From Marchantia polymorpha subsp. ruderalis (Eukaryota; Streptophyta; Marchantiopsida; Marchantiales; Marchantiaceae), in the NCBI GenBank assembly GCA_037833965.1, contig AP031351.1, forward strand, positions 11,296,501-11,360,500: 64,000 nucleotides of DNA, given 5' to 3'. A model generated the notes under the pieces. The model worked only from the letters and a program-made list of their open reading frames with translations, did not search any database and was not told where the DNA came from. The translations under genes were made by a program, and so were the position numbers. Within the stretch, counting starts at the first letter, position 1. Each line of letters opens with the position of its first letter. Below, one piece after another: positions 3,660-44,900 of this stretch.

Positions 3660-5000
3660 AAAGTAAAGACTTTGATCAAAGTATTAATTGGATTGAGTTT
3701 ATCGTTGATATTAACTATCTCAATCGTTTTTTCAAACATTGCTTATGATATCTATGAAATCTTATGCCAATATGCTTCACTTTATTATCCATGATTTGGC
3801 TTGCAACTATATGTAAAGCACTCTGGCTATCGCAATGAAAATTTATCACACGTTGTGTAAATCTTATTTCCATGATAAAACTATCTAACCAAATAGCTTC
3901 ATTTACCGCTTCTATTATTGCCACATACTCGATTTTCGTTATTGACTGAATTATGCACTTCTACAAGGTAGATCTCAAACTAATAATTTCATCATCAAAT
4001 GTAAACACAAATCCAGTCAAATATAAACTTTTGTCTAAATCTTGTCCGTAGACAACATCAATATAATCAAACAAGAACTTAGCATTGTCTAATAATTCAT
4101 CAAACAACAAATTATAATCCACAATACTCTTCAGATATCTTAGAATCCATTTCACTGCTTCATAGTGAATTTTTCTTGGATTCAACATGTATTTGCTCAC
4201 CATACCCATTGCAAGATTGTTATCATGCCTAATGCACATCATCAAATACATGAGACTGTTTACAGTTTGTTCATAGAAAATACATGACATTCTTTCTTTC
4301 TCCATAACATCTGTAGAACATTGACTTGCGAAGAGTTTAAAATGTGTTGGCAGAGGAGTTCATCTTACTTTCAAATCACCATGTTGAAACTGTCAGATAT
4401 ATGGCAAACATACTTGTTCCAATTCAATCAGAGCTTCTTCTATTCATAATACTTATAAATAATTATGATTGATATCATCTTCGACTCTCCCATAATCTTT
4501 ATCTTAAATGTAGACTTCAACTAATTCTTATGCTAATCGACATCAAATTGATTTATAGTCAAGATGAACATATTGTCAATGTAGAATATTAAAACGAGAA
4601 GATTGAATGTCTTATCATTAAACTTCTTTATGTACACACAAAGTTCGTACATGTTTCATACAAAATTTTGTGTTTTCATAAACTTACACAATTGAAAAGT
4701 TTATTTCAGTCCATACAATGATTTTATTCATTTAAAAATTAAAATTTTTTGAATTTTGAACTCAAAATCAACTTCTGTCTTCACGTAAATCTCATATTCT
4801 AAAATCCATAAAGAAATATTGCAGCCACATTCATTTGACATATAATAAGTCTGATTATTGCGACTAGTGCACATCCCAGATATAATCATAACATACTTTA
4901 TTATATACCAAAAGATTTAGTTTTAATCTACAATGTTCTCTAGCCACCCATCTTGCTTTGAAAATTCTCAGACTCATTTCTTTTCTTTTCTATATTTTCA
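3660..5000 (-). mobile_element. Ty1/copia retrotransposon remnant (pol: reverse transcriptase to RNase H)
   Basis: On the minus strand the order is reverse transcriptase then RNase H, as in Ty1/copia pol. Visible pieces include an FYIDNMFIL stretch near 4560-4600 that corresponds to the YVDD box. A segment with SLMYLMMCIRHD and AVKWILRYLKS (about 4305-3961) corresponds to the RT-RNase H connection, and FHCDSQSALHIV plus KHIGIRFH (about 3924-3715) to RNase H. The element is old and broken, with several breaks. I could not define intact LTRs. Gag, protease and integrase were not recognised, so this is a 3' fragment. Confidence 0.8.
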
Positions 5001-15936: not shown

Positions 15937-18900
15937 TCAAATTATATCGTATAACATGCCCAGCTCCAGATATTGAGCATAAGGAATGTCCATAGTAGAA
16001 ACTTCAGATCTGCAATTGGCCTCCAAAAATCTGTAGAACACACCTACGAAAATCCGTGTTGCCATCCTTGTTTTCCTACTTACTGTCAATTCGCTTCTTC
16101 CTAGAACGTAAACGGGGCCGTCGGTCTTAGCCTGGTTCAAATCTGCAATCTCAGAGGCGATGGTGAGAGGAGATAGCGTGTTGTCTTGAAGTGACTGAGG
16201 AAGTGCTGCATGATTTGTTTGTTCCGTGGCCATGATATACTCACTTAACGTTGCCACAAACTGGTCGACAAATTCGTCGTTCTGCATTTGTAGCACATCT
16301 CTGTACCCGTATCGAGCCACACATCGGTAAACTCCAGAAAAGCCAACTCTTCCCACGAGGAATCGTTCGGCTGGCAACACTCTCCTCACGGGCATCCAAC
16401 GTATGGTGGTGAACACCAGCACGCGATGTAAGGAGCGCACGTTTCTCACGTAGTGACCAATTATCGGAGGCACTCCATGCAGTAAATTTGTGTAGAAGAA
16501 ACAAATACCTGGTACTCGCGCACTACCTCCGTGAGCTAGTAGCTCTCCTAATTTTTCTTTGGTAATCTTATTTCTCATCTCGTAGTGGACCTTTGTTTGG
16601 CAGCCCATATTCCACGAAAACATGATGAGGGTGACAATGAGTGAGACCGCAAATGGGAGCCAGCCACCTTGTGGTACCTTCGTCACAACAGCACTCATGT
16701 ACGTACCTTCTACAACGATGAAGAGCAGAAAAAAGGGGAGTACTAAGAACACTGGAGTTTGCCATATTACGAGCATCACCAAACTTATGAGGCAGGTCGT
16801 TATCAACATCACCGCCACAACAGCCACACCTGTTCCACATTGAGAGTCATCCTGCAGGATTAGAAATGCTAGAATCAGGAGACATTGAAACTAGTCCAAC
16901 ACTCTAAATCGTTGCAGAAGACGCGCTGAAAGGATGGGAGGAAAAGGAACACTCACCGAACGCATTACCAATATCACCTGATTTACGAAATCCGAATACC
17001 ACAGCAAGGCATAAAACCATGAGAACATAGTTGACCTCAGGTGAATAAATCTGGCCCTCTTTATTTTCTGATGTGTGCACCAACTTCACTCGGGGGAAAT
17101 AATGCAAAGCCGTAGATTGCTTTATGATAGAGAAAGTAGCGGAGATGAGTCCTTGGCTGGCCACGATAGCCGCGAGGGTTGCAACCACAAAAACAGGCCA
17201 GTACACCTTCTTTGGGACCATTTTGAAAAATCCCTCGCGATGATCCTCTGGATGCTTAATGAGATAAGCAGTCTGGCCAGCATATGTTACCAGAACGGAT
17301 GGGTACACCATCGTCGTAAATGCCAACTGCCAACATTAAGCTAGTTAGACTTCTTACTTTTAGCTTATCTCGCGTAAAATAGCAACCTCATTTATTAATT
17401 GGCGTGCACGAATTGAACACTTGCAGATTTTGATCACAAAAGTCGTTTCTCACTTCTTGAGCAATATATCTTTCACGCTCAAGTACGAGTCTATAGGGCC
17501 CTTCTCAGATATTCGATATTTCGCTACCCAGATAGCGTGCCTAGACATATTTTCAGTACATATTTCCTCATCTTTCATAAGAAAAGTGTAGAGGTTGCAG
17601 GATTTGCTCACTTGAATTGAACGTTTATCGAAATGACCCATGTCCGCATACATGGCCTCCGCTCCTGTATACCGTCACAGCCGTTCGTACTTTAGAGTGA
17701 GTCACAGGGAGAAATGCACCGCAGGACCTACCTATGTTCCAAATGATCGTTGATCCACCACACCACTCAACGACCCCCAAAAAAGAAATTGATTTCCTGA
17801 GATTTAAAATCACCCAATGTCACATCTCAAGAGCTTTTTCTGTGCACCTCCTAGCACAAGAATGTAATGATTTTCACTCTGACCTGTAATACACAGTATC
17901 GTGCCACCGAGCATCAACCAAGCATTTTTCTTGTTCTGCTTGAAAAAGTAGTAGATGTGAGCAGGCGAGAAGGCTTTGAAAATCCCCGGATAGTAGATTG
18001 CGATGTTGTATGCAGCAACAATAGGAGTTGTTATCAGCCAAAGGGCCATTATGGGTGAGAACACCGAGCTAACTCGATGTGTGCCAAATCTTTGGCAGGC
18101 AAACAGCACAACAAGGATAACTGCAGATACAACCACAACCACAGCTGGATTCGCAACCTTACGTCAGTACGAATGGATCTTAGTGAATAAAGAAGAAGGC
18201 TGTGGAAAAGCTGACAACGAAAATTCGTGAGGCTTCTTAGCTATGTCTACTGTCCATAATCTAAGTCCCTGATAGCTCTTCCTGAGTATGAACACAATCA
18301 TCGAAGACTAATAGACAAAAGTTCCTTTTTCGGCAGCCAAACAAGGTTCCCTCGAATAATTTTCACTTGAACGCACTCTAAAACACAATCTCAGTCTTCA
18401 AGGTAACAATGCACATATCCTCACTGATGTTACTATTCACGAACTTAGCACCTTTGATCAGCCTCAAGAGTTTGGGAAACCTTTATAGCGACTCACTGAT
18501 CTCTTTGCTCGAAGCGAAAATTTAGCACGGTCATCGTTTTGCCTTGCGTTCAACAAGAAGTCAGAAACACGAAGACTGAAGTAGACGAGTTACCTCTGTT
18601 GAGGCTCGGAGCAGCTGTTTGAATCCCTTCAATGGCTGACAACACTGCAGACAAAGTCATGAACTAAGTACTGTACCTTGACATGGAGAGGCCATATCTC
18701 AGCGAATATGAAAATGTCTATCATCGTTTTTGGTGTCTGTTGGCATAAGATGGACCAGATTGCGCGTTCCAGTACTATGCGCCTACTTGTTAGTGTTGGA
18801 ACGTGCCGGTTGTGACAGATAATGCTCTGAAACGAGTTCAAATTTTTCGTCATCCTATCTTTATTTTCTGTGGATTTAAGCATTATCCCGTCTTTCATGA

Positions 18901-20323
18901 GTTGGACTCAACGCAGTACCAGATATGGCAGGGGTTAAAATGCCGTCGCCCACTAACATGCAGGTCCCCATCATGACCACGAAGAGTAAAACTCTTTGAG
19001 CTGCCACGCTGCCTTCAAGAAAACGTTTGGTACGGTTCTGCTTTGTTGAAGCCGCATGTTCGGAAAGTTGAGAACGTCTTGGGCCAGACATTTCTTGGTT
19101 GTCATCACCGGCATCCTGACCTATATTGGCATGCTGGCATAGCAGCGAGTAAACGGCAAATGTGCCACCTGAGCGAAGCATAATGAAGTAGTAGGAAAAC
19201 AATTGTCAGATTTCTGCTACGTCTGGAATTTCCTGCTTTGACATCTGAAGCACTGCGCAAGTTCTCTAAACGACTTCGATGTGTCCCGGCAAGTTAACAA
19301 ATTTATACCTCTGTGGGATATGGGAATATCAGCTACTACAGAATGAATCAATCCAGCACTGGGCTTGAGAGTCATATTAGAGAAATAGAACCTTCTCCAT
19401 GATCGTCAGCCCGGAGAACAATCAAGGTGTATTTCAGAATTCCGATCAAGGTAAGAGTCCAGAATATGAGGCTTAAGATCCCTAAAAAATCCGATTCAGT
19501 CGGGTTCGTCACATTGATTGTTGGGTAAACATACAGAGGCGATGTGCCGAGGTCACCGTATACAACTCCCAGCGTTCGGAATGCTAAAAACAAGGTTTCC
19601 CGAAAAGTGTTTGCCTGGATTTTCACACCAAGGAATAAGCTCAAATGAGTACCAAATCCAGATGTGTCCAGGATGAAAAGCAGACTACAAAACTCCTTCC
19701 AGCTGTTTACCACTGTGCATGAACCATATCTTATTAAGCCACTAGTACACAAGAAACGATAGTCACGGGAAGGCTGGTCCAGATACAATTTCTTTCATCC
19801 GCAGAGTGGACCTTAAGCAAGTCCATTTAAGAGGTTGAGCCCAATTCAGAAAAGTGACGAAGCGAATACTGTAGACCATAAATTGCGCAGAAGCCCCTTA
19901 TGGATTGAATTTCACGCTGACGGCAATTCAACGTTAGCATCCATCACGTCTTCTGAGTTATAAGATAGCTTCCTGGATCCACCTTGCAAGGAACAGATCT
20001 CTGATTTCATGGGATGATGTTGATGAATATTAGTCCGACCGACCTGATTCCAATCGCATCTACGGAGCACAGGTTCTAGCCTGGTTGAACGTACCTTCGG
20101 TGATTCTGGAAAAGCCTTCTTGAAGAATCTGGAGGACAGTGATCTGAACCGTGAAACTGCTCTACTCTCTATGTCGCTTTCTGCTCCTGCAGAGTGTCGT
20201 TCACCACAGCATGCTTCGGAGGCATTTCTCTCATTAGCTAATAATATCTCCTCAGAAACAAACTTGAAGCCAACCGCGGCAACTCTGCTCGTCGATATCA
20301 AAGCTTTTGTTAAAAGCCATCAT
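15937..20323 (-). CDS. HAK: HAK/KUP/KT family potassium transporter
   Basis: High-affinity K+ (H+-coupled) transporter of plasma or internal membranes. Nine exons on the minus strand: 20323-20275, 20186-20095, 19614-19392, 19168-18920, 18644-18594, 18144-17884, 17664-17612, 17326-16957 and 16829-15937, about 746 residues, within the usual 700-850. Family signatures are in order: [14 protein letters not shown] (about residue 63), [81 protein letters not shown], and a long cytosolic C-terminal domain after the last helices. All phases match. The start is the weak point. I prefer ATG at 20323 with an 88-bp first intron (weak GTTGGC donor). Without that intron the frame stays open to about 20301 but has no ATG. 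Exon 2 ends at an ideal AAG/GTACGT donor. Confidence 0.92.
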
Positions 20324-26246: not shown

Positions 26247-27368
26247 ATGGAAACTAAAACAGAGGATGAGGAGAAGAAGCCACCAAGCGATCCTTTTGGC
26301 ATCATACCTTCTCAATCTATTCCCCAGGAGAGTCGGCGGCCCCCGAGACCTAGCGCGAGCAACTTACGGACATTGCGAAGAGCGAGCCTTGATAGCGCAC
26401 AAGCGTTGGTAAATCGAGGCCAAGCCGGGCGATCCAACAGTGATGCTGCTGCAGACGAAGCCCATTACTTCGCCCACAAATTGCAGGAGTGGTATGACCG
26501 CAACCAGTCTGTAGACTTTGACAGCAACCCTGCAGCTAAACAAAAGTGGTTACAAACTATTAAACCTACCGATGAAAAGGGGAAGAGTCCCGCACTCGAG
26601 GCAATATCTGCTCAAGAGACGACCTCGCCTGCAGCTACCAGTAGCCCACCACACACAGAAGTATCTGACATGAAAGAAAAGGTGTCCGCATTAAGTAAGG
26701 AGGAGCTAGTAGACCTTGTCCTGCTGTATTATCATGAGTTGGTAGGCCTTGGCCGTACTCAAGATGCGACCAGAGTACTTCAATCGGTAATCCACCGCTG
26801 CTCTTTCCGAAACTGTTCTCAAACTACGTTCTGAATTTCCCACCAGGCTCGCCATATGAGCTTTTACATCAGATCTTTAAGCCTCAAAACCCTGTGCTAC
26901 GAATCGAGAAGAACGTAAATCAGGTTTCATTTAAATGACCACCAGACTAATACTAAGAATACAATTTTTTTGTTGGAAACAAACTAAAGTTAGCGAGCTA
27001 TCGAGTCCTCCCAAAACTAAACGAAACGAGGCGTTTAGATCTAGTTTAACATGGAGAACTGATGAACAGAAAGCAGAAAAAGTTCATAGCATTGAGTAAA
27101 ATGAGCCAAGCACTTCTGAGTGACCGAGGAACTATGTCCAGACATAAGAGCTACTTGGGTAGACAGCTGGACGACATACAAGTATGAACGAAGAAATGAT
27201 TTACTGCATGTTGAGATGCTTTGATAGGCTATCGAGCACGTAAGCATACAGCGGCCAGTGGTGGAGGGACAAAAAACGGGAGAAACTGGAATCGACAAGC
27301 TACTGAACGATGGACTGCTGAAGTTTCTCCTAAAGCTCAACAAGTATCTACCGCCGCTACCTGCTCAG
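26247..27368 (+). other. ABCG N-terminal extension (exons 1-2)
   Basis: About 219 residues precede the first ATP-binding domain. The start is rich in Pro, Ser and Arg ([20 protein letters not shown]) and probably disordered. It then has two helical patches: [19 protein letters not shown], and [20 protein letters not shown] with a following hydrophobic helix. Exon 2 adds [20 protein letters not shown], which leads into the usual pre-NBD strand ([12 protein letters not shown]). I recognise no named domain in the extension. Exon 1 ends at a TCG/GTAATC donor in phase 0. Confidence 0.7.
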
Positions 27369-30300
27369 GTAACTTCGTTCGTCGGTTTGAACCCTCTTCG
27401 CGAATTACAAACATACAGTGGAATAGGAAAGTCACTTTAACCTCAACATAGAGCCGTTTCTCTGACGAGCAAATTATCACTTTATGATTCTTGGTGTATT
27501 TGACTAATTTTGAGAGCAGTACCTGTAAATGCTGCAGTTTGAAAGTAGAGGCACACTCAGAATCTAGTCTTGTTAAGCTGCTGAAACCAGCGCACTTTTA
27601 TGTTTACATGTTGTTCCTTTGATTGGTTTTCAATCGAAGGAAAAACTGGTTCATAAGCACAAGTAAACGTATCTGATTGTGGCTGTAAGGCAAGTCTACT
27701 CTTCAAGTCAAATCTAATTTTGTAGTAGTGTTGTGCACCACTAAAATGAAATGTTCGAAATCAACGTGCAGGTTATCAAATTCAAAGATGTCTCGTATTT
27801 TACAAATGTCAATGAAGCAAAAGAAGGATATGAGACAGTGGGATCCATGTCCCTCAAGTTGTTCTTACCTTGCATAGGCAACAGAGCACCACCATCGAAG
27901 TTTTCCATTCTCCAGGACTGCACTGGATACCTGATGCCCGGAACATTGACATTAGTATGCGGCCCACCAGGGTGCGGTGAGTTGCATAACCGCCACACCT
28001 TACGTATTGTCAAGATCCAGCATCGCCCTGTTTGCATGAACTAAGTACATTGCATGCTTTGTGTGGAGAAACAGACGGTTAATGATTTTGTGCTCTGCCC
28101 TTTGTAAGCCCCATGGCCGTCGGGATTTTTGTATAGTTTCATTTACTCGTCTCCAGGTTTCACGTCCCTTTGCTCTTCTATCTGCACTTCATCAAGAGCA
28201 AGGCCGATAGACCTACATAGCAAAAAGAACAACTCGAACTGCATGCCATATGAGTTGCAATCACATGGACAGTGCAAAATGTGCACAACGGACCTCACCT
28301 CATGCACCCGTCATTGTTCTTGTTTCTGTGCCAGGAAAGAGCAGTTTGCATAAAGCAATAGCTGGCAGACTTCAAGTAGATAAACGAACTTTCCTTAATG
28401 GAAGAGTCACGTACAATGGGAAAGGTCTTGAAGAGATCCAACCGCGACGTGTGGCCGCTTATATAGCCCAAACTGACAGACATCTTCCAACTCTCTCAGT
28501 TCGAGAGACAGTCGATTTCGCCTACAAATGCACAAGTTTATTTCCCCAAGAATCTGCTAAAAACAGTGAAGCTGTGAAGGTGATTTTGATTAGGTGATTC
28601 TGTTAAATGTTTTCTCCGTTCAAGCACATTTCAAATTCCCAATATCCAACTTAATCAGTTCCTATACTGTTGAAGCACATGCAATTTACTCCCTTATTGT
28701 ACTGAAAACCTGCCCTCGGCAGATAGTGAAAGAGCTTGGAGGTGCAGATCTACCCTTGGAGCTAATCTTACATCTACTTGGACTGCGAGCTGTTGCGGAT
28801 TCTGCTGTGGGTAGCGCGACTGTCCGCGGAGTTAGTGGTGGCGAACGGCACCGCGTAACCACGGCAGAGATGGTTGTAGGTACCTCCCTGAATCGTGATT
28901 GTTCATCCTGTCCACCGGGATGAACGTTACTCGGTAGTTTACTCAGTATGTTCATGTTGGACATGAAGCTTAAGAGTTTGGACGTATTAATATCCCCAAC
29001 TAGAAAGAGATTTATAGATTTTTCTGTGCTCATACAGAGGCCTTCTTGTCAAGCAGGAACGTTTGCCGTCTTACTACTGGATGAAATTAGCACTGGACTG
29101 GACAGTTCAGCAACCTTTGACATTGTTTCTGCCCTTCGAACAATGGCGCGAGTACGGCAGATTACCTGCCTTCTATCCCTTCTTCAACCCTCACCAGAAG
29201 TATTTGACATGTTTGACAGGTACCTTCGCCAAAACTCCGCGGAGAAAAGCAGTCCAGCTTCACGTTTCTGGAACGTAACAGCATGTGGATCTAGTGCTTA
29301 GTGTATGTAACCTGTCTTATGCGTGGGATGACTTTGAATTTGATGTATGGTCCAGGGTCATCGTTCTGAATGAAGGATGCATCATTTACCAAGGACCGAA
29401 AGAAGACGTTATTCCCTACTTTGCTGAACTTGGGTAAGAAAAACAAGGAACAAATTCTACGCACTGAATAGGTGATCGAAGCCATTGCCGATGCTTTGTA
29501 AGTGGAAGGCAACATCACGCTTCTTGTCATCTGTCTATATACAGATATGCGAAACCGAAGCACGTGGATGTAGCAGATTTTCTGCAGGAGATAACCACAA
29601 GCGATGGTGTTCATTTTGTTCAACCCGGTTTTCTTCCACTGACCCATGAAGAGTTCCATGCAGCTTATTTGAGGTCAGAGATGCACGCGGACGTAGAGCG
29701 CATAGTCAACAATCCCAAGGTACTTACCGTAGACATTAAGTTCTGCACTCGATGAATTCCCGTGCTCGACTCGTTCATGCTACTAGAATGGACTGCTATC
29801 ATGCATCGTTTGTGAAGCTCATGATCATCCCTCATCAATCGTAATATATTTATCTACTAGCTTGAATCGTGCACAGTTTTAACCTTGCGTATGATTCTCA
29901 GTCGTAAGTATGTTTTAAGCGGGAAAGACATGAATATTAAAAGTACGCCAAAAAATAACATAAAGTAACATCCTATCAAAATCCTGAAAGGACGAAGCCA
30001 AATGGGTAACATAGCACTCAATGTATCCCATTTATCTGGAAAATAATTATTTCGTTCGTAATTCTTGATTCAATAAGTGCTTTGTTTAGAATTATGAAAA
30101 CAGGTTCTTAAAATAATTTACACATGACATGAATAATACTTCAGGAGTTAAAAAGTTCATGAACAAAGTTCATCTTTAAATTTTGGATAAAGTTGAGCCT
30201 TGCGGAACCCTCGCAAAAATAAGTTGTACTTTGAACTTTGTCATTGTTTTACTTCCATATCTTGTATGGTAAAGAGTTGAAAAGGATATTCATATATATA

Positions 30301-32090
30301 TATGAAAAGGATATTCATTCATAAAGAGTTGAAAGGATTTACACCCCACAGAAAACCGAAAATAGTCATAACTAGTTAACGTCATTCTCTCGATTTTGAA
30401 ACCCTCAATGTTTTGTATGAACTCCAGACAATTCAAGAGTTGTGGGTACAATCAGAGAAACCGTTGGGTTTGAAACTTCACGATCAATTTGGTGCGAGGC
30501 CAGGTAAGAGGACCACCTAGTTTTCTATTAATTGGTATTCCAAACTCCGTTGTTTGTTTATCAAATCGAATGATGTAGCCTTCTGGGAGGGGGTTGTAAT
30601 AATTGGTCTTATGAAACCTTTCCAGGGTTGTGAAATTTATTTGATATATTGTGTAATCCTCTATGTTGATGTTCATTTTGAAAGCTGTATCTTCGTCACT
30701 GGATCAGAATCTGGAAAATTAACGACACTTTTTTACTGATATCACACAGGTGAGAAAAACGCAGTAGAGGTTTTCGAGGTAGAACCGACTGGTACCGTGG
30801 CAACTGCTGACATTCAGCAAACCTCTCGAGTAAAGGCAGGAGATGTCATAACGGGTGTTGTCGGTCCCAACGGTAAACTTGAATATGTATCAGGCTCGGC
30901 AGAAGAGTTTGTCGCTGAAGATGTAGTTCAGAAAGTGATGGACACGCAGGGAACTGTTCGTTTGCAGCTCGAGCGAGTTCTAGAGGAGGTACGGCATCTT
31001 ATGACTCCAAATCTTTGTTTTTCCAGACTCATTGCTCATGAACAAAAGTGATGAACTTGTGCTGACCATATTTTTCTAAATAAAGCTTCCCTACGAAGCC
31101 GGGTTAAACTTACTTGCCCGATTTTTCCTTCTCTCTTCCTCGGCATTTTGGGAATGGCCTACCCTCTTGCACCGAGAGCTCCGTTCATGGACATCGAGAG
31201 CGAAGTCCCGTCTTTGAGACGAACCCTACATGAACTTCAGCAAAGTGGTCCACACAAAATTGAACCGAGTTCCACTCTGGCACACTGGGAAGTCGGATTA
31301 ATGTCAGACAAACGTACAAATGTACTATTTATCAATACCACCGTATTGATGTTAATATGCTTTATAACTACGCGTTAGCACTGATAAAAATATAACCTTC
31401 CTAGTCATCACTTCGAATTTGAAAATATAAGGTACCCCAAGGCTCGCTCTTTGAATGCTTATCTGCCTATGATCGTAGTCAGATCTATAACTTGATCTTA
31501 CACAAGAGATTTCAAATTCCGCTGCCTTAAAATAAAATCTTCAAACAAGTACTATCTTGTGTAAACTTAATTTCGTAATCCTTTTGTTTTGCACCTAATG
31601 TTAAATAAAGTGGAAATTTTTCTTTCATATCTGGAAAATAAAATACATATATATTTTTGAATGTATCGAGAAGCAACTCTATTGATATATGTTGCAATAA
31701 AAATCATTAGTCAAAGATAATTAGAAGGGATTTCAGTGAAAACATGGATGATGAATTAATATTTTGGAAAGTATAAAAAATTATTATTTTTACATATTTC
31801 ATGAGAAGCATGCTCAACCTAGTGATTGTCATGTATATTTTCAATGATTCAGTAAACTGATAATTTTGTATTGCAAGCATATTCAAAACACTAAAAAAAA
31901 AAAAAAAACAAGAGAATATATAGCTATAAAATGGTAAAAGACCAAGCCCGGGGACCCAAAGGGTCAAAAGATTGAAAAACACAATACAAGCAACAACCAC
32001 AAACAAGGGAAAATACCCCAAATGCCAATCCCTAGGTAGTGCCAAGAGCACTAGAACGGTAACTAATAATGTCCCTAATGTTGGGCTCTG

Positions 32091-32124
<34 letters not shown>

Positions 32125-35100
32125 CAGAGCCCAACATGGATGGGCATGGGCACCCAATGCCCATGGATTTTGGGTGACATTATTTTTCCATGGGTGGACA
32201 CAAGCAATCCTAAGGGCAATGTTTGTGAAGATCCAACCAAGAATTGGTTTGACCGGTTAAAACATTTAGCACAATTGGCGCAATTTGAATAGCATTGGCG
32301 GGCTTAGGTCGCTGCTGATAGTTATGGTCTGGTCTAGGTGCAGATTTGAAGTAGAATGTTGTCCTCTACTATATAGTAAAATATATTTAAAAGTTTCTAA
32401 AGTTTCTACTAGTTCTGTTTGAAGTGCGAAATTTACTATCTAGAATGATCAATGCAGTTTTCAAACTTTCATATAATCTTCTGAAATTTATTTTCCATTA
32501 CTTTTGTGATTGCTATCTTTCTATATGAGCTAATGCATGTGTATGTAAAAAGGTGCATTATCTAAAATCTTTAATACATGTATCGTATATCAATGTATTC
32601 CACATTTCAACCTACTAGATCCATCAAACCTAATAGATTGACCGTTCCTCTTCAAAGTATGCATATTGCTATATTTATTAATTGAATCTAGATAGTCATC
32701 TTTTTCATTTTAGTGTCCAGTAGTCACCCTAAAAAAAGTAATCTTTGAGTACATCATTATGCGATGTTATTAATCAATTTCATTTACCTTTACAAATGAT
32801 GTTCTTTAACAACTTCATGCAAATTATTATTATTTTATGAACCAATCTTCTCTCTTTTTCTAGTATTTTATGTTCAATTAATAAATTATAAAGTCTATAT
32901 GAAAAGTATGTTTTATAGTGGAAAACTTGCGCAAGTTGTTCATCATTAGCATCATGTCCCTCAGTTACAACGTACTGACTACATGTTACACTTTGTAACA
33001 TACTAGTATCTTATAATTGCATACTTCAACCTTCAAGAATGAGATACAATATACGCAGCATGCACGGCAGGAGACCATACATATGTCGCATTAGCTACAG
33101 TATTTGAGCAGGATATTCCGTTTGTTTGTGCATAATTTTATGAATTACATTACGCAGTGCATCTCACTTGGTCTCTTTCTCTATGGAACAGCAAAACAAC
33201 GCTAGAACACTTTTCCAAAGTGAATATGTTCAAGACTGGAAAACATCCGCCAAAACTGTTTTCAAGAGGCAGAGCAAGTTAGCGATTCGAAATACGATTT
33301 TCGTGATTGCTCGCAACGTTCAGGTGGAGCTACGTTTGTGAATATAGCTAAAAAGATAGAAACCAGAAGTTAGTTGGCATGGGGCTCCTATGTGGAAATC
33401 AGATGCCACGATATGTAAAGGGAACAATGCAGAGAATCGTGACTATCTGCTAAAACTTTTTATGTTCGCTCCGCACTCAGATGTATTCAATTTTAGTGGA
33501 TATCTGAAGTTTCAATTTGAATCTTTCTACACCGTAACATGAACAGGTGTCTTTGGTTTAACTTATATGATATCTTTCTGTACTCGAATTGTAATTTCGG
33601 AATGGGCTTGAAGAACTCATAATGTTTTGGTGAACTACAGGTGCTCATTATTGCGATCTTTACTGGGACGCTTTTCTTTAAGGTCTCAAGCTCTCATCAA
33701 CAAACTGCTATGGATCTTAAGAAGTCGCTTGCATTTTTAGCATGCATGGCGCTCTCCCTGAATACTGTATCCCAAATTCCCGCACAGCTAGATGAACGAC
33801 AGGTGAAATATTGGAACCTGAAATCAAATCATTGTAAATCTGCACTTACTGATTACTTTCTCGGAAGATTGCTAACATCAGGGATGCTAGTTTGAGATCC
33901 TAGTGGGACATAAACTTAGAGAAACTTAGAGAAACAGCAAGAGAGATTGAGTGTATGATGGGGAAATTGTTTAGCCCTCTCTTTTTTCTCGAGTTTTAAC
34001 TGGACTTGGCTTTGTATTCTCTTTGAATTGTTTTCTGGCATCATTTTTCTTGTTCAAGAATAATGTTGCAGAATATGAACAAAGAAAAAAATGCGTCCGT
34101 TTACCTTTTTTTGAGTACAGTTCACACTTTTAGCTATTTTTGAAAAGTCCACCACTGTTAAGCAGTCTTCATCTTCAGCTTGTTGCTGTAGGTGTTTGAG
34201 AAGCAATACGCTGCAAGGTTTTTTCGCCCACAGTCTTATGTTCTTGCCGGATCTCTGAGTGGTATTCCATACACCATCTTAGAGGTATTCAAACTCTCCC
34301 CTGCATGTCAGGCTCTTTTTGTATCTATTAGCAAATATAATTGAATCTTTTGATGTTACGACCGTTTGTATTTTGTTTTGCCATTGTCTTCGAAAGCGAA
34401 GCTAGTGGATTTTTAGCTACTTAGTTCGGGAATAAACAATCTCCTCAGTTCGAAGACTCGCTATCTTCGCACTTATTCACTTTCACGAGTTTTAAGGTTT
34501 ATTCAACAAGAACAACGAAAGGTCCAGGGAATAACAGAATAAATCAGAGACGGATGGAAAAAGAAACCAACTGTAGTACAGGTCAGGAAGGAATGAACTC
34601 ACACGAGGAACTAATCAAATGACATGTGAGCTATGTGGTCAAATAACTTTGCTAATCTTTGGTCAGCTGAGCTACATAGTTACCCACATAGCTCACAAAG
34701 CTAAGTGAGTTCATGACTCCCTAAGTACCACACAAAGGTAAGACGAGAGCAGAATATTCATTATATGTTGACCACGCCATTCCACCGCCATTGTTTAGAC
34801 TCCAGAACAGTTGACCGATGTGGAGTCATTGAAATTATACTCCCCGCTGATTCTTCAGAACTTGCTGATTGCCAAACTTGCTCCCGGAGGAGTACATGGC
34901 TCCACGATTTGACCTTTCTACATTAGATATTCTCAAGGTATCTGCATACCTTAAGAATCAGAACCGAAAGCCATTCAGGTGACGAGAATGAGATCTGATC
35001 GAAATGGCTGAGAGCATACAACTCTCAGGCATCTCAGACAATGTTTTATTAACTACTTTTTGAAAGAGTAAACTTCACAAGCAGTTTTTGATGGAATCTT

Positions 35101-38100
35101 ACCATCCTTTTTGCTATATTAGTTGGTCCTAATATCCGTATTGAAACTTTGCATATTTAGAGGTCCAAGCTTGGCTTCTACCATTATTGTTAAGATGAAG
35201 ATATTGGCATAAAGCTTGACTTTGTTGACCGGATCGTTTGTTTACGTGCAGACCATCATCTACTGTCCATTACTTTATTGGCTGACAGGACTAAGTGGAG
35301 CGCAACAGGGGAGGCATTTCATTCTATACGTTCTAATTGTGTTTGTTTCAGCTCTTGCTGGAGCGGCATTAGTGCGCTTGATTGTCTCTGTGAGTGGGAC
35401 GCGTGAAGGTGCAACTGGTCTAGCAGGTCAGATTTTAGTTACTTTTTGCTCACTTCAGGGATGACAAATGTTCTTGGACTTTCTTGCAGGCGTGCGATGC
35501 AGAGAATTCGAAAATGTAACATTGAAATTTACGGATATGTAGGCTTCTGCAAACTGGAAACGAAGAGTTAGAGTGAAAGATTTTTCTGGTGCATGTATGT
35601 TGTGTCGTGATGTGTAAGGCTCGAAATTGTAATCAAGATATCAAGTCCTAAAAGTCATGTCTGAAAACTCAAGAATAAACTGAGAGCACCTTTACTAAAG
35701 ACTTGTGAATCTTCACTCACAAGTCCTGAAGAACGTAATGCTTAGCTGAACCTTTTGACGACGGGTGAAAGAGGTGTTCTCCTCAAGTTTTTTGCCACAG
35801 AGGCTCTACAGGGGATTTATGGTTGGCAAATTAAACCCGATCTACAAACTTACTTTGTGCAGTTTGCAAATGAACAGTAGGGTTGCCTGTACCAATGAAA
35901 TGAAGAACTGCTGTTGCTGTAAGACAGATGAAGTGCTATTCTCTAATAGGATGTATTCAACAGCATACTCGCTCATAATAATTATATTTTCTCTCATAAC
36001 AAGGTATTCTGGTTTTCTTCAGGTCTCAGCATTGTCTTGTTCCTGCTGTTTGCGGGGTTCTTGATCACCGTGAACAAAGTTCCTGATTGGTGGATCTGGA
36101 TGTACTACTTAAGTCCACTCCAATGGGGAGTTACGGCATTGATATGCAATGAGTTTCTCTCAGGAAAGTACGATATGGTACGTAAATTCTTGTCGTGGAT
36201 TATAATCTACTGACATCTATAAACCTGCCCTTCGACTTTGCCGACATATCGCAATAAGCTATATCCGGATTCAAGTGTACTACTGTTTAACAGGTATCCT
36301 TGTACTGCATAGGATGTAAAATGGATACAAGAAATTCACTCCCTGAGTTTCATCCAGAAATATTTTGAAAGCTAAAGTATTCACAAGCTAAATCTTTACT
36401 TCGTGTAGCCTTGCAGTGCAGAACTGGATTACTGCTTGCCAAGGATGCATTTAAAAGTTGGGCAGGCATACTTGGACCTTTATGGATTTCCTACAGCTTT
36501 CTTGCGCGGTGTTTGGATTCCTGTGATTATTCTTGCCGGTTACTATGTCTTCTTCACCTGTCTGACATTCGTCACCGTCTCAATGTTGCGCTTCGAAGAG
36601 GTAGATTCCACGACTGTTTCAAGCATCTAGAAAACATTTTGAAAGTAGTTCTCGTGGGAGCTTGTGACTACGTAGACCTGTGAATGCACTTTTGTAATAA
36701 AGACTTTCGCCTTGCGAAAGTCTTTCTTACAATACTCACTGATGATCGATATAACTGAGGACTAGTTTTGGGACTGTACTTACCGTACGGGCTGAATGTC
36801 ATCAAAAATGCCTCCAGACAAGGATTGTGTCTAGATACAAAGTTTAGAGACAGACCAGCGTACACCTGTATTGTGTTTGACCACTCGAGAGTGCCCATAG
36901 GACTGCAGCTTTGCCGTGTTGCCCGAGTGTTGGATGTTCATTCTATTACTCAAATGACACAGGTTAAGCTCCCGTCTGCTGCTAGACTGCGTGCTGCCAA
37001 GATGAAGGCCTTGAGATTAGCTGCATTGCAAAAGGACCCTCAGGCACCGCCTAGTGATCCCCAGATGCATCTTAAGAGTGGAGCTGCAAAAGAGGCTATT
37101 ACTATGGACTCTGCCGTTAAATTTGTGCCGATGATACTGTCATTTCACAAGATAACGTATGAGGTGAAAATCTAATTCTGGAAAGGAGCTAGTACAGTTA
37201 TGCGTTTCATTTGCGGACTACTGATTGATTATCTGCTTGAAATTCCATGCTCTGACAGCTGGGAAGAATTGACAACAGACCGTTCAAATGGACATCACCG
37301 TTCCAATGATGCCAAATTTTATATCAACCCCAGGCTGCCTTCTCAAGGGCTTTCTTGTTGATACATGAAAAATGAATGAATTCTGCTAAATATGTGCTCA
37401 ACGAAGATGTTATTTTACACAAATCTTGTTGCTGGAAGGAGTCCCAGAGAATTTAATGTTTCATGACATTTTATGACATAATTCAGCCTTGATGTGTACG
37501 TCCAGGTAAACGTGCCGGGAGCACGAGATCCCAGACTTCTACTTGCCGGTGTTTCTGGTTATGCCAGGCCGGGCACGTTGACAGCATTGATGGGCAGCAG
37601 TGGTGCAGGAAAGACAACACTTCTTGATGTTCTAGCTGGTCGCAAGACCATGGGACGGATCACGGGTGAAATACTACTGAATGGTTACCCCAAAGTACCA
37701 GATACCTTTGCCCGCATAGCAGGGTAGGTTAAAATGCAGCGTTCTTTGTTTCATGTACTTTTTAACATCATAGTTCAATGAAGCTTCTGCCACAAATTTT
37801 TCAACCCACATCTTATTTGAAATTTCGAGTACAGGTATGTTGAACAGAATGATATACACACACCGTTTATATCCGTGAGGGAGTCCCTGGTATTCAGCGC
37901 CTCTCTGAGATTGCCCTCCACTGCTAACCGACTTCAATTCGTGAAAGAGGTAAACTAACAAACTTCGTAACATTATTGGACAAGGGGACAGAAAATTAAC
38001 CATCCACACCAAACGCTATCAACTATCTGTTAGCCACAATATTTGCTGCAATTAGCCTTGAATCTCCTAACCTGTCTCGTAGATGTCTCTCCCAGTGTAA

Positions 38101-41100
38101 GAGCCGATCATTTAGTCATGTAACATGTTAATAAGGGCGAGTAGTGAGACTGCGTACCTTAAAGTCCTCAAAATGGCCCTACTGACACAGGTGATGGACG
38201 TTCTTGAGCTTGGAGAAATATCTGATAAGCTTGTAGGTGTTATTGGAGACAGTGGACTTTCAGTGGAGGAAGCCAAACGCCTCACTATAGGGGTAGAGCT
38301 TGTAAGTTTTCGGATATGTAACTAGGCACAGAAGAGCCTAATTGTCTTTACATTTGCTTTGCAGACGAATACTATAGTCTTTCAACACAGCGTTAGTGCT
38401 GCTATTATAGACAGTTAAATTTCGTCCGAAAAAGCTAAAATACTGAGCCCCTGCTGACCATAAGGGAAAACCGTCTTTTCTCGGTAACCATCTAGTCTTT
38501 TAACAGTATTCAGCAGGACAGTTATTGCTTGATCGAATTCATGTTACACTGGCGCCTTTCGATACTCACGTCTAAGATTCATGTGCAAAGCACAACTTCG
38601 CTGCTTCGAGTGTTCTAACAAGCTGTGTCAATAAGAAAGTTTCGCTTTGCCGGTATTGTGAACCAGGTTTCGAATCCAAGTATTTTATTTCTCGATGAGC
38701 CCACAAGTGGTCTAGACAGTAGAGCAGCGCAAATCGTGATGCGCAGCATTACAAGCATTGTAAAGACAGGGCGAACAGTAATCTGCACCATTCATCAACC
38801 GAGCCGCCGTTTGTTTCTGGCCTTCGACCATCTTCTCCTTTTGAAGCGTGGGGGACGTACTGTATACTTCGGGCCCATAGGAAAAGATGCAGAAGACCTT
38901 TTGGTAAATTCTTCCTACTACTTGGATTAGCTATCTGTGATATTCTTGGCTGCACATGTTCTCGAATGTACACGAGTGACTAGTCAACAAAGTCATGGCC
39001 CTCACATGAAATTTGTACCTGATGACATCTGTTGTGAGGGGCTGGAAACCAGGCCTATTTCCAGTCTCTCCCAGGAGTGCACGAATGCGGAGAAAACCAG
39101 AACCCAGCATCGTATATGCTAGAAATCATTGGAGCAGGCATTGGACACTCTGCCAATCGAGACTTTGCCATAGATTACTCTATGTCCTCTCTCAACCAGG
39201 TCAATGGTGAGACAAACCAACCTTCATGCTCAGATGAACTTTGCAAATCATGTACTGTACCTAGTTAATGTCTGGACTCCTTGCGCAATTAGTCTAAAAC
39301 CAGTCACGAGGGGATTCAACCGTTGACATCTTTTGTTTCTCTAACCTTTGGGCACATAAAAACTTTGAAAGGGAAGGAGAGAAGGTTCACCGCGGTAGAG
39401 GACAGCCCGAATGAAGTAGCAGACCTCGCTGAGACCACTGACTGGACTTTATTGCTTTCTGTACAGCCTTCTCACGAGGCGAAAATATTGTGAATAGATA
39501 GCCATCATCCAGTCGGTAGGTTAAGCGCCTTCTATCATGTTAGGTGTCCCGTTTTGCCATGCGTTAATACCATGGATGGTAGCATGCACTCTTTGCTGTC
39601 AGCAAGAGGCACCAAAGAATGCATCCATCAAAAAACCAGTCGCTATTCCTCGCAAGGCTGAGGAAACTTCTCAGCAGAAGGATCCGGTTGACATCGCCTC
39701 ATGATCATGAGATCGATGCTCTGTCATTCTGAATCAAATTCCCTGGGCCGGGTTGGTGGCTGCGTACCTGGAGAACAGTGGAGCTGCTGGAAACCTACAG
39801 ATTCGGTAAAGGCAATCTGGGGCCCGAGCCCAGCGTCAAGGGCTACGCCGCGACATTTTGGCTCATGTTTGTAACTGTAACTACACGCCAGTTCAAGACC
39901 TACTGGCGTAACATCGCGTACAGGTTCGTTCTGCTCCCTTTTGCACAACTGTCACTTCACCGACCTGCGAAAGCACCACACATTGTCGTTTCGTCTCGTT
40001 AGCAGCAGCAGCCGCAGAACGAACTCATTGCTAACTTTGTTGTGTAGTTAGTGTTCTCCTGAACATCAAATTGGCCTGTTTAGTCGAACATGTTCAAGGG
40101 CTGCTGCTGAGCTTAGAGAAGGAACAGAGTTGTTTGTTGGAGGTCTGCCTGCAAGGCCCCCAAACTCTTGATGGTTTCTCACTTTTCTGAATCGATTTTT
40201 TCAAGTTGTACCAACATGACCTGACAATCTTTTAACTTGCTTCACAGTTTTGGAAGAATGATGTTGTCTGTTATCCTCGCACTACTGCTAGGAAGTGCGT
40301 TTTGGCAGGTGCTGTTCAGAATCATCCTTTGGTAGTTATTAAGGTCAGTCGTGATACATACTGAAGAATGTGTTGTAATCATGGAGACGTCTGGGTCATG
40401 CTTAGACTATCTCTTCCTTTAGAGAGAACTGCATAATGCGTACCCTACGACTTCTTCCATAGACTCGAATCCTGTACATTTCCGTGATCTTCATCTCGTA
40501 GATCCGAGTTAAATGAACAAGAAACGAAGGGAAAGAATTTCTCGTATACACCTTTTGCAGCCCTTCGCCCTCCGTAGTTAGTAAGTTACATTCTACAACG
40601 TTAATATGACTTATGTATCAGCTCAAAACCATGACAATCTCGTTGTTGTGAACGGACCAGATCAAGTACGACACAACTCCTGGGATGATCTCCAGGCTGG
40701 GTCTTATCTATTTATCCATAGTGTTCGTTGCCATCACAAATGCTAACAACGTCATTCCCCAGGTTTGTAGCCCCAGAACTTCTCCGTAGTGAAATCTGAA
40801 AGTCTTTTGCATGCCTTGCTTTGTAGTATGGCTATCAGACAACCACCACTAGTCTTATAAGACCCAGGTTGCTTTGAGAAATAGCCAGCTCTGACAGTAA
40901 CTGAGCTTCCTCGTATTTAATTCTAGTAGAAAGAAAGCATTCTTCAAAAAAAAAACTAAGAGAGCCGAGGGTGCTCGTACTTGTAGGTAAATGCGGAGCG
41001 GCCCGTGTATTACAGAGAACGGGCATCTAATATGTACTCTCTACTGTTATATAACTTCTCTTGGACTCTGGCTGAGGTACCTTCTTGCTTTAAACTGAAG

Positions 41101-42161
41101 TTAAATATTGCCACATAACGCTAAAATTCAGCCCAGAGATGTGTCCCCTTGAAATCACGTGGTGCATCTTCTTATTCTTACATCGAACAAATCCGACCGT
41201 CCCATACACAAATGATGACCTGTAGCATACGGCAAATTGTGGCAGATACCATATCTGTGTATATCAACTCTCATATTCTGTGCTATTTGCTTCTCGATGG
41301 CCGGAGTAGCGACCACATCAGCAAAAGTTTTTTTCGAATACTGGTTCATCTTCTTTGAGTATGCCGCGAGCATTACATTTTTCGGCATATTTGTGGCTAT
41401 GCTCACACCAAATGCCGAGGTACATCTGAGTCAATTCACTCCTAGCCACAGTTTCACCTCAACCATTGTCTCTGAGCCAATATATTGCAACAAGAATAAT
41501 CTGCTCAAAATTTGATGATATTACGGCCATGTCGTTCATGTGTCTGGTGGTAGTATTCTTTCCAGACGGTAACTCGCTCTGTTGATTGCCATGATTCCAG
41601 ACTGCGACTATTATTATTCCCATCATCATCAATTTCTGGTGAGTTGCTGCATCCAAATAAAATGACCGATGCAGACTTCTCACTAATATGTGCACACTCT
41701 CCTGACTGATCATTCTCATACACGTTTTCAAAGTATAGCACTTTGAGAAAGTTCCTGTGATTTAGCCATTGCGGTTCTTAACATGTGCGTTTGTAACATG
41801 CAGGAACATGACTTCCGGCTTCATGATCCCGAAAAGCGAAATTCCCAATTTTTGGATATGGCTGTACTGGATAAATCCCACCATGTACGCACTCAACTCC
41901 TTGAACTCCATCGCTTTCTACTGCGATACATCCAGCCCTCCGTGCAATTCCTGCACGACTGATCCGACCAGCTGCCCAAATTGTGACTGTGTGCGTGTAA
42001 CCGACCAACACAATCTTCTGGCGTGGACACTACTATCTGTTGGTAGGTCCTTAAATTACTCTTATCGCACGAGGGATAAATGGGTTCTCTTCGCCTTCGT
42101 TATAGGATTTTGTATCTTGGGCGTGTTCGCTTTGAAATTTATGCGCTTTGATAGAAGGTGA
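26247..42161 (+). CDS. ABCG: full-size ABCG (PDR-like) transporter with an internal PDZ domain
   Basis: ATP-driven membrane exporter with the reverse full-size layout NBD1-TMD1-NBD2-TMD2, about 1,640 residues compared with about 1,450 for typical plant PDRs. Coding exons that phase-match: 26247-26786, 27252-27368, 27772-27976, 28335-28579, 28723-28879, 29057-29219, 29356-29433, 29545-29719, 30428-30503, 30750-30988, 33192-33323, 33641-33802, 34192-34284, 35252-35426, 36023-36177, 36409-36600, 36963-37163, 37506-37723, 37835-37949, 38191-38301, 38667-38903, 39053-39199, (39603-39686), (~39770)-39923, 40248-40308, 40661-40762, 40987-41076, 41246-41419, (one unresolved short piece), 41804-42161. 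Stop follows FMRFDRR, a normal PDR-style end. The extra length is an N-terminal extension and a PDZ insert. Substrate unknown. Overall similarity is to algal/oomycete-type full-size ABCG proteins (inference from memory of the family). Confidence 0.88.
27772..29719 (+). other. ABCG nucleotide-binding domain 1 (exons 3-8)
   Basis: In order: Walker A GPPGCGKSS (split by the intron after 27976), Q-loop region [18 protein letters not shown], signature [14 protein letters not shown], Walker B AVLLLDE with D-loop [12 protein letters not shown], and [14 protein letters not shown], where Gln takes the switch-His place as is usual for the first NBD of full-size ABCG proteins. [20 protein letters not shown] follows. 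All catalytic landmarks expected for this half are present. Seed-plant PDRs usually read VSGGQ at the signature and SQHDLH in the Q-loop, so this domain is of a different subtype. Confidence 0.88.
30428..30988 (+). other. PDZ domain inserted between NBD1 and TMD1 (exons 9-10)
   Basis: Exon 9 (30428-30503) encodes [20 protein letters not shown]..., and exon 10 (30750-30988) continues through [45 protein letters not shown] and [10 protein letters not shown]. This gives the PDZ order: the carboxylate-binding loop PLGLKL, a strand ending in the P-G-T-A turn, the highly typical V-K-A-G-D-V-I strand, helix B (EDVVQKVM) and a closing strand GTVRLQLER. Phases agree: exon 8 ends phase 0, exon 9 ends phase 1 and exon 10 ends phase 0. 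PDZ domains bind C-terminal peptides and organise membrane proteins, so a trafficking, scaffolding or regulatory role is likely but inferred. Confidence 0.72.
31199..31300 (+). other. possible extra ABCG exon, undecided
   Basis: A plus-strand frame reads [17 protein letters not shown] and [15 protein letters not shown] and could be a linker exon between the PDZ and TMD1 segments. Exons 10 and 12 both meet in phase 0, so splicing works with or without it. The candidate acceptor (31197-31198) has a poor pyrimidine tract and donors nearby are weak. Transcript reads would decide. Confidence 0.25.
32078..32137. repeat. perfect 60-bp palindrome with (TA)n core, in ABCG intron
   Basis: The arm atgttgggctctgc leads into an uninterrupted TA run and then gcagagcccaacat, perfectly symmetrical over 60 bp with no loop. 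A second small hairpin, catgggca (32145-32152) / tgcccatg (32158-32165), follows at once. A poly-A run lies near 31893-31910. The flanks (about 31,890-32,290) differ in composition from the rest of this 2.2-kb intron and may be an inserted element. Confidence 0.9.
33192..36600 (+). other. ABCG transmembrane domain 1 (exons 12-17)
   Basis: Begins with the amphipathic connecting region [20 protein letters not shown] and [18 protein letters not shown], then helices [111 protein letters not shown], a [17 protein letters not shown] segment, an external loop with CSAELDYC (two Cys) and a last helix [17 protein letters not shown]. This matches the ABC2 membrane fold of the family. Phases are consistent at every junction. 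Confidence 0.88.
34593..34714. repeat. foldback sequence in ABCG intron
   Basis: Nested inverted repeats: atgaactcac (34593-34602) pairs with gtgagttcat (34705-34714), and gtgagctatgtgg (34626-34638) pairs with ccacatagctcac (34684-34696). The whole is about 122 bp and looks like a small MITE-like foldback, lying in the 967-bp intron between two TMD1 exons. No clear target-site duplication was identified. Confidence 0.6.
36963..39199 (+). other. ABCG linker and nucleotide-binding domain 2 (exons 18-23)
   Basis: The linker ([20 protein letters not shown]...) leads to [15 protein letters not shown], the strand that opens the second NBD. In order: [18 protein letters not shown], Walker [21 protein letters not shown]-loop [18 protein letters not shown], signature-like [17 protein letters not shown], Walker [19 protein letters not shown]-loop [11 protein letters not shown], then [13 protein letters not shown] and the family's NPASYMLEI. 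The signature has SVEEA where plant PDRs usually read STEQR. The switch His and Walker B Glu are intact, so this half looks catalytically competent. Confidence 0.9.
39603..42161 (+). other. ABCG transmembrane domain 2 (exons 24 to end)
   Basis: The linker [20 protein letters not shown] (39603-39686, acceptor and donor provisional) precedes [18 protein letters not shown] and [20 protein letters not shown]. Helices follow: [34 protein letters not shown], the [18 protein letters not shown] turn, [40 protein letters not shown], then [20 protein letters not shown], a Cys-rich external loop ([20 protein letters not shown]) and final helix [19 protein letters not shown]. Two junctions are unresolved: the start of the exon ending at 39923, and the piece joining 41419 to 41804, where a short helix of about 10-20 residues should lie. 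A candidate is the frame [16 protein letters not shown] near 41511-41560. Confidence 0.82.
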
Positions 42162-42578: not shown

Positions 42579-43337
42579 CTAAAATCCGTCCAATTTCAAT
42601 GGTTGTTCAGGAATAGCCTGATATATTGGAAGAGCTACAGAGTCAACAGATTTCAGATATAGTGCCTGGATGCCACCCCACTTCCTCGGTGTATGTGCAG
42701 CGACTCCCTCAATGATCGCCTTCAAGTTGGACATAATTTCGTCCTTAGACTGAGAAACCCTAGCTGCTTTAACTACGCTACACGAGCCTCTCCCTAATTC
42801 GAACTCCGAAGAATTGCAAGCGGCGGTAATTTGCCCCTTCCACTCCTTCCTCGTTAATTTCACTGAGAGAGGCCATTTCTTTTTCTTCCAGAATATCTTC
42901 CCGAGATACTTGGGCATTTTTGCAAAAATTCGATCATCGCAGAGAAACAGATCGTACGAGCCACAAAGCTTCCTCCTGCCCTCGTGAGTGTTATAGTTTT
43001 TCGACAGCTTCTCGGCGTCGATCACCTTCGTCACATTGGACAGACCTTCAGCAAGGAGCTTTGCTTTCACCTCTGTCTTCGATAATCCCCCAAGACGACC
43101 ATCTTTGACGAACAGACAGATCTCCTGTGCGCCATCTAAAGGATGAAGGGAATGTGGAAGAGGAATCCTGTGACGAGTAATATTGGCCTGGTCCGGAACT
43201 TTATCCAGAGTCACCACCACGTACAGGAGCTGGTCGTCCTCCAACAACCGAGCCTTGTCGCGCCCATTCTGCGATTTGACCCATGTCAACAGCGAATCCA
43301 CAGCCTTTCCGACCTGTTTCTCGTCCACAAACTTCAT
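42579..43337 (-). CDS. ribosomal L1-domain protein (RSL1D1/Utp30-like), intronless
   Basis: A 252-residue single-exon frame from ATG at 43337. Matches the plant ribosomal L1p/L10e family related to human RSL1D1 and yeast Utp30, which act in the nucleolus around pre-rRNA processing. Visible family landmarks: an N-terminal AVDSLLTWVKSQ helix, LYVVVTLDKVP, RIPLPHSLHPLDG, EICLFVKD, the GRRKLCGSYDLFLCDDRI segment, MPKYLGKIFWKKKKWPLSV, GSCSVVKAARVSQSKDEI and a C-terminal half of the L1 fold ending in SVALPIYQAIPE. Length matches the conserved domain alone, without the long basic C-terminal tail of the animal protein. It converges on ABCG. Direct role in this organism is inferred from the family. 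Confidence 0.87.
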   Translation of the reverse strand: MKFVDEKQVGKAVDSLLTWVKSQNGRDKARLLEDDQLLYVVVTLDKVPDQANITRHRIPLPHSLHPLDGAQEICLFVKDGRLGGLSKTEVKAKLLAEGLSNVTKVIDAEKLSKNYNTHEGRRKLCGSYDLFLCDDRIFAKMPKYLGKIFWKKKKWPLSVKLTRKEWKGQITAACNSSEFELGRGSCSVVKAARVSQSKDEIMSNLKAIIEGVAAHTPRKWGGIQALYLKSVDSVALPIYQAIPEQPLKLDGF

Positions 43338-44900
43338 ATCGCTCCCTCACTCGCCTCGCCTTCTGTCCGGAACCGAACAGATCTCTCAAAATTACGAGCA
43401 CAGACTACGATCCTGCTCGACAGCCCAAAACCACATTGACAGCCTCTTCCGTGCTGGCTTCTCGTTCTTCCCGTTTCCTCTGATTACTCTACGCTTCCTC
43501 CTTTCCCCCTCGCCCCGGCACTGCTGCACGTACCTGGAGTGCTGGGCGGCCGGCGAGGGGCCACGCCCTTAATAACATTAGGGTTCGTGCTTAGGGCAGA
43601 CGTGGCTACGCTTTGGCAGAGAGAAGGCGAAACTATATTTGATGCTAGTACACTTGATACAGTGTTGATACAGAACAATATTTAGCGTTGAATACAGTTT
43701 TGTAAAGCCTCAAAACTGTACTCGATGCTAAATATTTTTCTCCTCTACTGTATCGCGTGTGCTGGCGAAATCTCCCATTTTTCCATTGGATGGTTTTCCA
43801 GGAACATTTAATATACTCTAGGTACTTACAGAGGACATCGGATATTTTACGAACGGTTGGACTTGTTTACCGTTTTGATATCATTGTGGCTAGCTTATCT
43901 TGCACCTTCGGTCTCATCCATTGAGTACCGGGGCCTTTCCATCTTTTCCAATACGTATTTCATCTTTCCTCGTGCTTCTAATGCTTACCAGAAATGCCAC
44001 AGTGACGCAGTCAACCACCGATGGTCAATGCGACATAATGTATTACACCATTTGATAATTTGATGCCAAAAACATGTATTCCTACCTCTGACCGGAGCAT
44101 GCCATATGCTATGGTCGAGAGGCGAAACGTTTTTATATTTGATGTTTGTTTGTCAGAAAGTTATGAACTAGATTCATAACTACCATGTGCATCAAAATTA
44201 ACAAATTCTATCAAATTGAGAAATTGAGGTTAAGACCGAGAGCAATGGTGAGTAGATGACAACCTCCCTAGTTTTTTTGTACTCTATTTTCTAAGCTAAT
44301 TCTAGGTTTATTTTCTTGAGATATTTGCTCGATAGAACCCATCAAGTTTTGTTTTACCCGATAGAACTCCAACTATGGTACACCATCGCCAAGTTCTAAT
44401 ATGTGTTACTGCAAACATATGATGGAATTTTTTATGGAGCTCTGTTATCGCAAATCGTTACTACCTCTCAAATTGTTAGTACAAGTCTTGACATGAATGG
44501 CAAATGAAACAGTAGGAAGAAATACTCGAAGGAGACCGAGACTAGTTCCTTTGATCTTCTTGCTTCCATTGTCCCATATCAGTCAATCTACTAGAATCTG
44601 GATGTCTCTCAGCACAGCCCCCATTGACGTGTTACAAAAAGTCAGTCAATTTTTTATCATCAACATCCAATTTCATGCGCGATTGGAAACTGTCATGTGA
44701 TTCAGTAGAACATGCTACTCACTTGCTCCTTGTGCATGCATGGATGGATTTCTCTCAGTGCATTAACGGTTGCAATCGAAGACATCAGGTTCCTCCATCC
44801 CCAAGATTCTTACACATTCTCAGCCCAGTTTGAGAATTTTGATCGACGGAGTTTCACTGCCTGTACCGTTTGTTGATACTATACATGACGTGGCCCGTCA
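43338..44900. other. promoter region of the L1-domain gene, then intergenic
   Basis: 43338-43570 is GC- and CT-rich on the plus strand and lies directly upstream of the minus-strand L1-domain gene, so it probably holds its promoter and leader. Beyond 43700 no gene is recognised. Plus frames at 43857-44063 and 44497-44833 are short and show no domain. Confidence 0.45.

Follow-up and report, generated by a model that had tools for sequence, protein, structure and literature searches.

RESULTS

A full-size ABCG gene in the Marchantia window

The window, that is, the whole 64,000-nucleotide stretch of Marchantia polymorpha subsp. ruderalis DNA analyzed here, corresponds to 11.30–11.36 Mb of contig C2 in a genome of 241 Mb and nine contigs. 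Its central feature is a complete full-size ABCG (PDR-type) transporter gene, predicted by splicing from DNA. All introns of this gene are of the GT-AG type, and with the acceptor of exon 6 placed at 29057 the spliced frame remains open for 1622 codons as far as the stop codon. Pfam identified two ABC_tran and two ABC2_membrane domains in the protein, and the gene model arranges them in the reverse order (NBD-TMD) twice in one chain, as is typical of full-size ABCG/PDR transporters. Among the best 60 of 454 PDB matches, the closest sequences were Pdr5 from yeast and CDR1 from Candida. The gene is organized as follows:

26247–42161, plus strand: full-size ABCG (PDR-type) gene, 30 exons, 1622 aa (spliced frame, Pfam, PDB matches)
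26247–27368, plus strand: exons 1–2, N-terminal region (gene model; partly homologous to the paralog on contig C8)
27772–29719, plus strand: exons 3–8, NBD1 with Walker A GPPGCGKS, signature VSGGE and Walker B LLLDE, all intact, ending in the NBD1-TMD1 linker (translation, motifs by eye)
30428–30503, plus strand: exon 9, first part of the PDZ-like insert, including the PLGLKL loop (gene model, Pfam, profile comparison, coding score)
30750–30988, plus strand: exon 10, remainder of the PDZ-like insert, comprising the GD motif strand, helix EDVVQKVM and strand GTVRLQLER (gene model, Pfam, profile comparison, coding score)
33192–36600, plus strand: exons 11–16, presumed connecting helix and TMD1 (gene model, Pfam)
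36963–39206, plus strand: exons 17–22, linker and NBD2 with Walker A GSSGAGKT, degenerate signature LSVEE, Walker B LFLDE and the H-loop His (gene model, Pfam; motifs by eye)
39779–42161, plus strand: exons 23–30, TMD2 through the stop codon (gene model, Pfam)

When the translation was inspected by eye, the motifs of the catalytic ATP site, namely the NBD1 signature together with the Walker A, Walker B and H-loop of NBD2, were found to be complete. One ATP site of the pump should therefore be catalytic, as in Pdr5, and judging from these motifs the pump is probably ATPase-competent.

The other features of the window were assigned from the likeness of their open reading frames (ORFs) to known proteins. 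Exons at 15940–19794 (minus strand) presumably belong to a HAK/KUP-type potassium transporter, and we take an intronless 255-aa ORF at 42582–43346 (minus strand) to encode a ribosomal L1 domain protein; this ORF lies directly downstream of the ABCG gene on the opposite strand. An ORF from 58247 onwards (plus strand) looks like the first part of a WAPL-type plant cohesin regulator, a stretch at 14126–14485 (plus strand) appears to resemble nucleoside diphosphate kinase, and a fragment at 3964–4359 (minus strand) was taken as part of a copia-type retrotransposon polyprotein.

Exons 9 and 10 enlarge the NBD1-TMD1 linker

An earlier note on this DNA had placed two phase-matched exons between NBD1 and TMD1. 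Its coordinates for them (30428–30988) proved exact: exons 9 (30428–30503) and 10 (30750–30988) together comprise 315 nt (residues 569–673), the pair is in phase 0 at both its entry and its exit, and the intron between them is in phase 1. The sequence motifs named in that note are all present in the translation, in the order given there. Its exon numbering (8-9-10-12), on the other hand, had implied one more exon in the 2.2-kb intron 10 (30989–33191). Such an exon was considered and dropped because the paralogous gene on contig C8 joins the corresponding exons directly, and the gene model contains none. Within the same intron, at 32078–32138, we noticed by eye a perfect-looking inverted repeat, atgttgggctctgcta / tagcagagcccaacat, flanking a TA run, which may be a small transposon or a hairpin.

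The length of the linker was counted between two anchors, the TS..DQ.QYW motif and the (K/R)RN or (K/R)RS motif ahead of TM1 (by eye for one locus, L037). By this count, the linker of the window gene has 181 residues. Of the 11 canonical PDR loci of this genome that were examined, nine have 83 residues and two have 84, and the window gene lies outside the 83–84 residues taken here as the mark of the canonical land-plant PDR clade. The 11 loci are those whose NBD1 exon matches the window protein at 42%–51% identity, and the count left out the weaker ABCG matches of roughly 28%–40% identity, some of which are probably half-size ABCGs. The genome search with residues 1–912 of the window protein gave at least 54 matches, with 50 of the 172 candidates scored. 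Exons 9 and 10 account for about 97 additional residues between NBD1 and TMD1, and the insert that had been proposed at this position indeed has no counterpart in any of the 11 canonical loci.

A second gene of the genome carries a diverged copy of the insert

A second insert-bearing gene was found on contig C8 (L023, G000:C8:20127500-20137400, from 686 onwards). Its model has 17 exons and 1710 open codons, with the 3′ end lying outside the DNA modeled, and the protein shares 37% identity with the window protein over 1571 aligned residues. Between the anchor motifs, the C8 linker measures 179 residues. The C8 insert, which is encoded by one 279-nt phase-0 exon, is homologous to the window insert, with 26% identity (27/105) and a blastp E value of 3e-9 in a single comparison; when the core without the flanking WVQ was compared, the z score was 6.5 and none of 5000 shuffles scored as high. 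Both inserts have WVQ, P-x-G in the loop, G-x-LEYV and RLQLER in common, and the C8 insert is about five residues shorter in the helix region. As aligned by eye, the intron downstream of the insert has the same phase and the same place within 1–2 residues in the two genes, the upstream introns are eight codons apart, and an additional intron interrupts the domain in the window gene. When the genome was searched with the C8 region and all 22 candidates were scored, parts of the window and C8 genes and other ABCG loci were recovered, and nothing else.

The catalytic motifs of the C8 gene, read by eye, are altered, with TLTANE as the NBD1 signature, YVYDH as Walker B and VQNPS at the NBD2 H-loop, and the frame is still open. 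Because the signature glycines and the Walker B glutamate of NBD1 and the H-loop histidine of NBD2 are changed, the C8 protein may not be an active pump, and its sequence is compatible with a possibly inactive or regulatory one.

The insert resembles a PDZ domain

The earlier note had read the insert as a PDZ domain, and this reading was upheld in part. PF00595 (PDZ), the sole Pfam family reported for the window segment, matched the translation of exons 9 and 10 nearly from end to end (profile positions 9–80 of 81), but with a score of 14.6 bits (E 0.045) against a curated cut-off of 23.2 bits, for which reason we refer to the insert as PDZ-like. The trimmed core of the insert scored 14.1 bits against the Pfam PDZ family. 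A second profile was built from 11 PDZ domains, 10 of which were verified by Pfam (hereafter the 11-domain PDZ profile). On the window segment it scored 10.2 bits, with an alignment that starts at the PLGL loop and extends to the GD strand, and the best of 5000 shuffles reached 8.9 bits. Upon comparing the profile of the two inserts with the 11-domain PDZ profile by hhalign, we obtained a probability of 77.6% and a score of 32.2 over residues 15–105 of 108, while none of 300 column shuffles of this pair scored as high (best 21.0). In a scan along the transporter pair, the top four of 57 scanning positions overlapped the insert (60.9% at best), and the next position elsewhere gave 6.7%. The similarity of the window insert to PDZ is thus significant at the level of the whole domain, with the elements in PDZ order. 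The C8 insert taken alone lacks such similarity: when scored against the 11-domain PDZ profile, it was equaled or exceeded by 3879 of 5000 shuffled window segments, and Pfam gave no match for it.

The 11-domain PDZ profile was also run on 1196 sequences, made up of 1194 window ORFs and the window and C8 proteins; here, the spliced protein reached E 3.2 and ranked below an unrelated ORF (7.2 bits, E 0.33). The frame of exon 10 alone had no Pfam match, and PDZ was absent among the 25 of 32 families listed in the whole-protein Pfam scan. NCBIfam gave no match for the window segment; for the C8 insert, its one match, to IPP isomerase, was weak (13.6 bits, E 0.024; cut-off 281.3) and was rejected.

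A genome-wide search with the Pfam PDZ family returned six matches, three of them above the cut-off, and the window gene, with its domain divided between two exons, was not among them. Judged by eye, the three matches above the cut-off look like a C-terminal processing protease, a site-2 protease and a Deg protease; as all three would be proteases, a PDZ domain inside a pump stands out. The PDZ identity of the insert is based on profiles, and from these we consider it likely that the insert has the PDZ fold.

The window gene branches outside the canonical PDR genes

The NBD1 tree was computed from 18 rows and about 103 columns; in it, all 11 canonical rows grouped together (94/97), with the window and C8 genes outside. 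The NBD2 tree (11 rows) likewise grouped its four canonical rows (100/100), again with both insert-bearing genes outside; it omits seven of the 11 canonical loci, in which the matching exon fell short of 110 residues. The window gene did not group with canonical PDR rows in either tree. Only the NBD1 tree joined the window and C8 genes to each other (79/54; 80% of 200 bootstraps); the NBD2 tree did not (14%), and in it C8 forms a long branch. From these sequence comparisons, one old insertion common to the two genes would fit best, though it is not strongly resolved.

As a second pump gene of the genome has a diverged copy of the insert, the window gene looks like a member of an old special pump class rather than a misread gene. 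We tentatively suggest that this might be an ancient, separate class of full-size ABCGs that predates the radiation of canonical land-plant PDR genes, and in which transport or placement depends on a partner protein bound by a PDZ domain built in next to the connecting helix. Three pattern searches of a viral contig collection (3, 84, and 51 matches) and one of a prokaryotic genome contig collection (27 matches) confirmed no relative; relatives in algae or other bryophytes may already be in databases. Among the literature matches listed, we found no description of an ABC pump with an internal PDZ domain.

DISCUSSION

A proposed docking or regulatory domain ahead of the connecting helix

Several ABC transporters are organized by separate PDZ scaffolds that bind their tails. 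The best explanation for the window gene, which we hold with moderate confidence, is a probably ATPase-competent full-size ABCG pump with a PDZ-like docking or regulatory domain of its own ahead of the connecting helix. The domain, of about 95 residues, follows NBD1 and precedes the presumed amphipathic connecting helix of TMD1, and it would face the cytosol and bind a peptide of a partner protein. The bound partner would then place or cluster the pump or, alternatively, would alter the transmission of NBD1 movements to TMD1 via the connecting helix. As read by eye, the insert of the window protein ends roughly ten residues ahead of the presumed TH1a; for Pdr5, the connecting helices TH1a and TH7a are described as the main contact between TMD and NBD (PMC8421411). 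If this explanation is true, a PDZ-like module of the pump itself, at the hinge between the ATPase and the membrane domain, would be a compact means to place or gate it.

The main rival to partner binding is a purely structural role, in which a PDZ-derived fold that binds no peptide would act as a spacer or brace packed on NBD1 and the connecting helix. Class I PDZ domains have a histidine at the alpha-B1 position. In the profile alignment, the window insert has an alanine at the corresponding position; by this rule, the predicted ligand is probably not a C-terminus of the classical class I type. This alanine is consistent with a spacer, as are the C8 insert, which is short in the helix region and not recognizable as PDZ by itself, and the location of the best-conserved stretches (G-x-LEYV, RLQLER), which are not those of the ligand loop alone. 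However, the P-x-G of the loop is retained in both inserts and the PDZ-like profile scores of the window gene are clear, and we regard a mere brace as unlikely.

It is rather improbable that the insert is some other small beta-rich domain with a chance resemblance to PDZ. Such a domain would be compatible with the Pfam score below the cut-off, with the uninformative AlphaFold2 prediction for exon 10 alone, without exon 9 (mean pLDDT 46, pTM 0.26), and with the outcome of PDB sequence searches with the window segment and with the pair profile, which found no PDZ chain. The shuffle controls, the scan along the transporter and the PDZ-like order of the elements argue against a chance resemblance.

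Whether or not the fold binds a partner, exons 9 and 10 might form a regulated cassette whose splicing yields pumps with and without the insert. Skipping the two exons together would preserve the frame, as they amount to 315 nt and are in phase 0 in and out, and would leave a linker of 76 residues, near the canonical 83–84; the C8 insert, a single phase-0 exon, points in the same direction. We give such a cassette a low probability; it is compatible with a docking or regulatory domain, not opposed to it.

The coding status of the two exons was assessed with codon log-odds scores, for which the remaining 28 exons of the ABCG gene served as the coding training set and its introns as the noncoding one. 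Exons 9 and 10 scored +0.26 per codon in frame 0, compared with −0.31 and −0.33 in the other frames. None of 2000 intron 315-mers scored as high, the introns also being training data, and the remaining 14 chunks of coding sequence, which were training data as well, scored from +0.12 to +0.32. This coding signal, together with the intact splice sites and frame and the homologous in-frame insert in the C8 gene, makes it highly implausible that exons 9 and 10 are a misread intron that is absent from the protein.

Comparison with known systems

The window gene shares with plant full-size ABCG/PDR transporters the order NBD1-TMD1-NBD2-TMD2, an intact NBD1 signature and intact NBD2 Walker motifs, and a degenerate NBD2 signature, but differs from them in the approximately 97 extra residues between NBD1 and TMD1, and it branches outside the canonical PDR rows of its own genome. 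Its protein finds Pdr5 and CDR1 as its best PDB matches (best 60 of 454). Pdr5 has one catalytic and one degenerate ATP site (PMC8421411), an arrangement that we also read by eye in the window protein, whereas the window insert has no counterpart in Pdr5 in the whole-protein alignment. The same article describes an LD2 motif, MQKGEIL, for the PDR subfamily, which was not seen by eye in the window linker.

With PDZ domains of the PSD-95/PICK1 type, the window insert shares the order of loop, strand, GD motif, helix and strand and a full-length profile alignment; unlike them, it scores weakly, has an alanine at alpha-B1 and a longer stretch after the GD strand, and lies within a membrane pump. 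A functional parallel may be drawn with NHERF, a PDZ scaffold that binds the tail of a transporter, CFTR. The window insert would also organize a transporter via a PDZ interaction, but the PDZ domain that resides in a separate scaffold in the NHERF/CFTR system would here be part of the pump itself.
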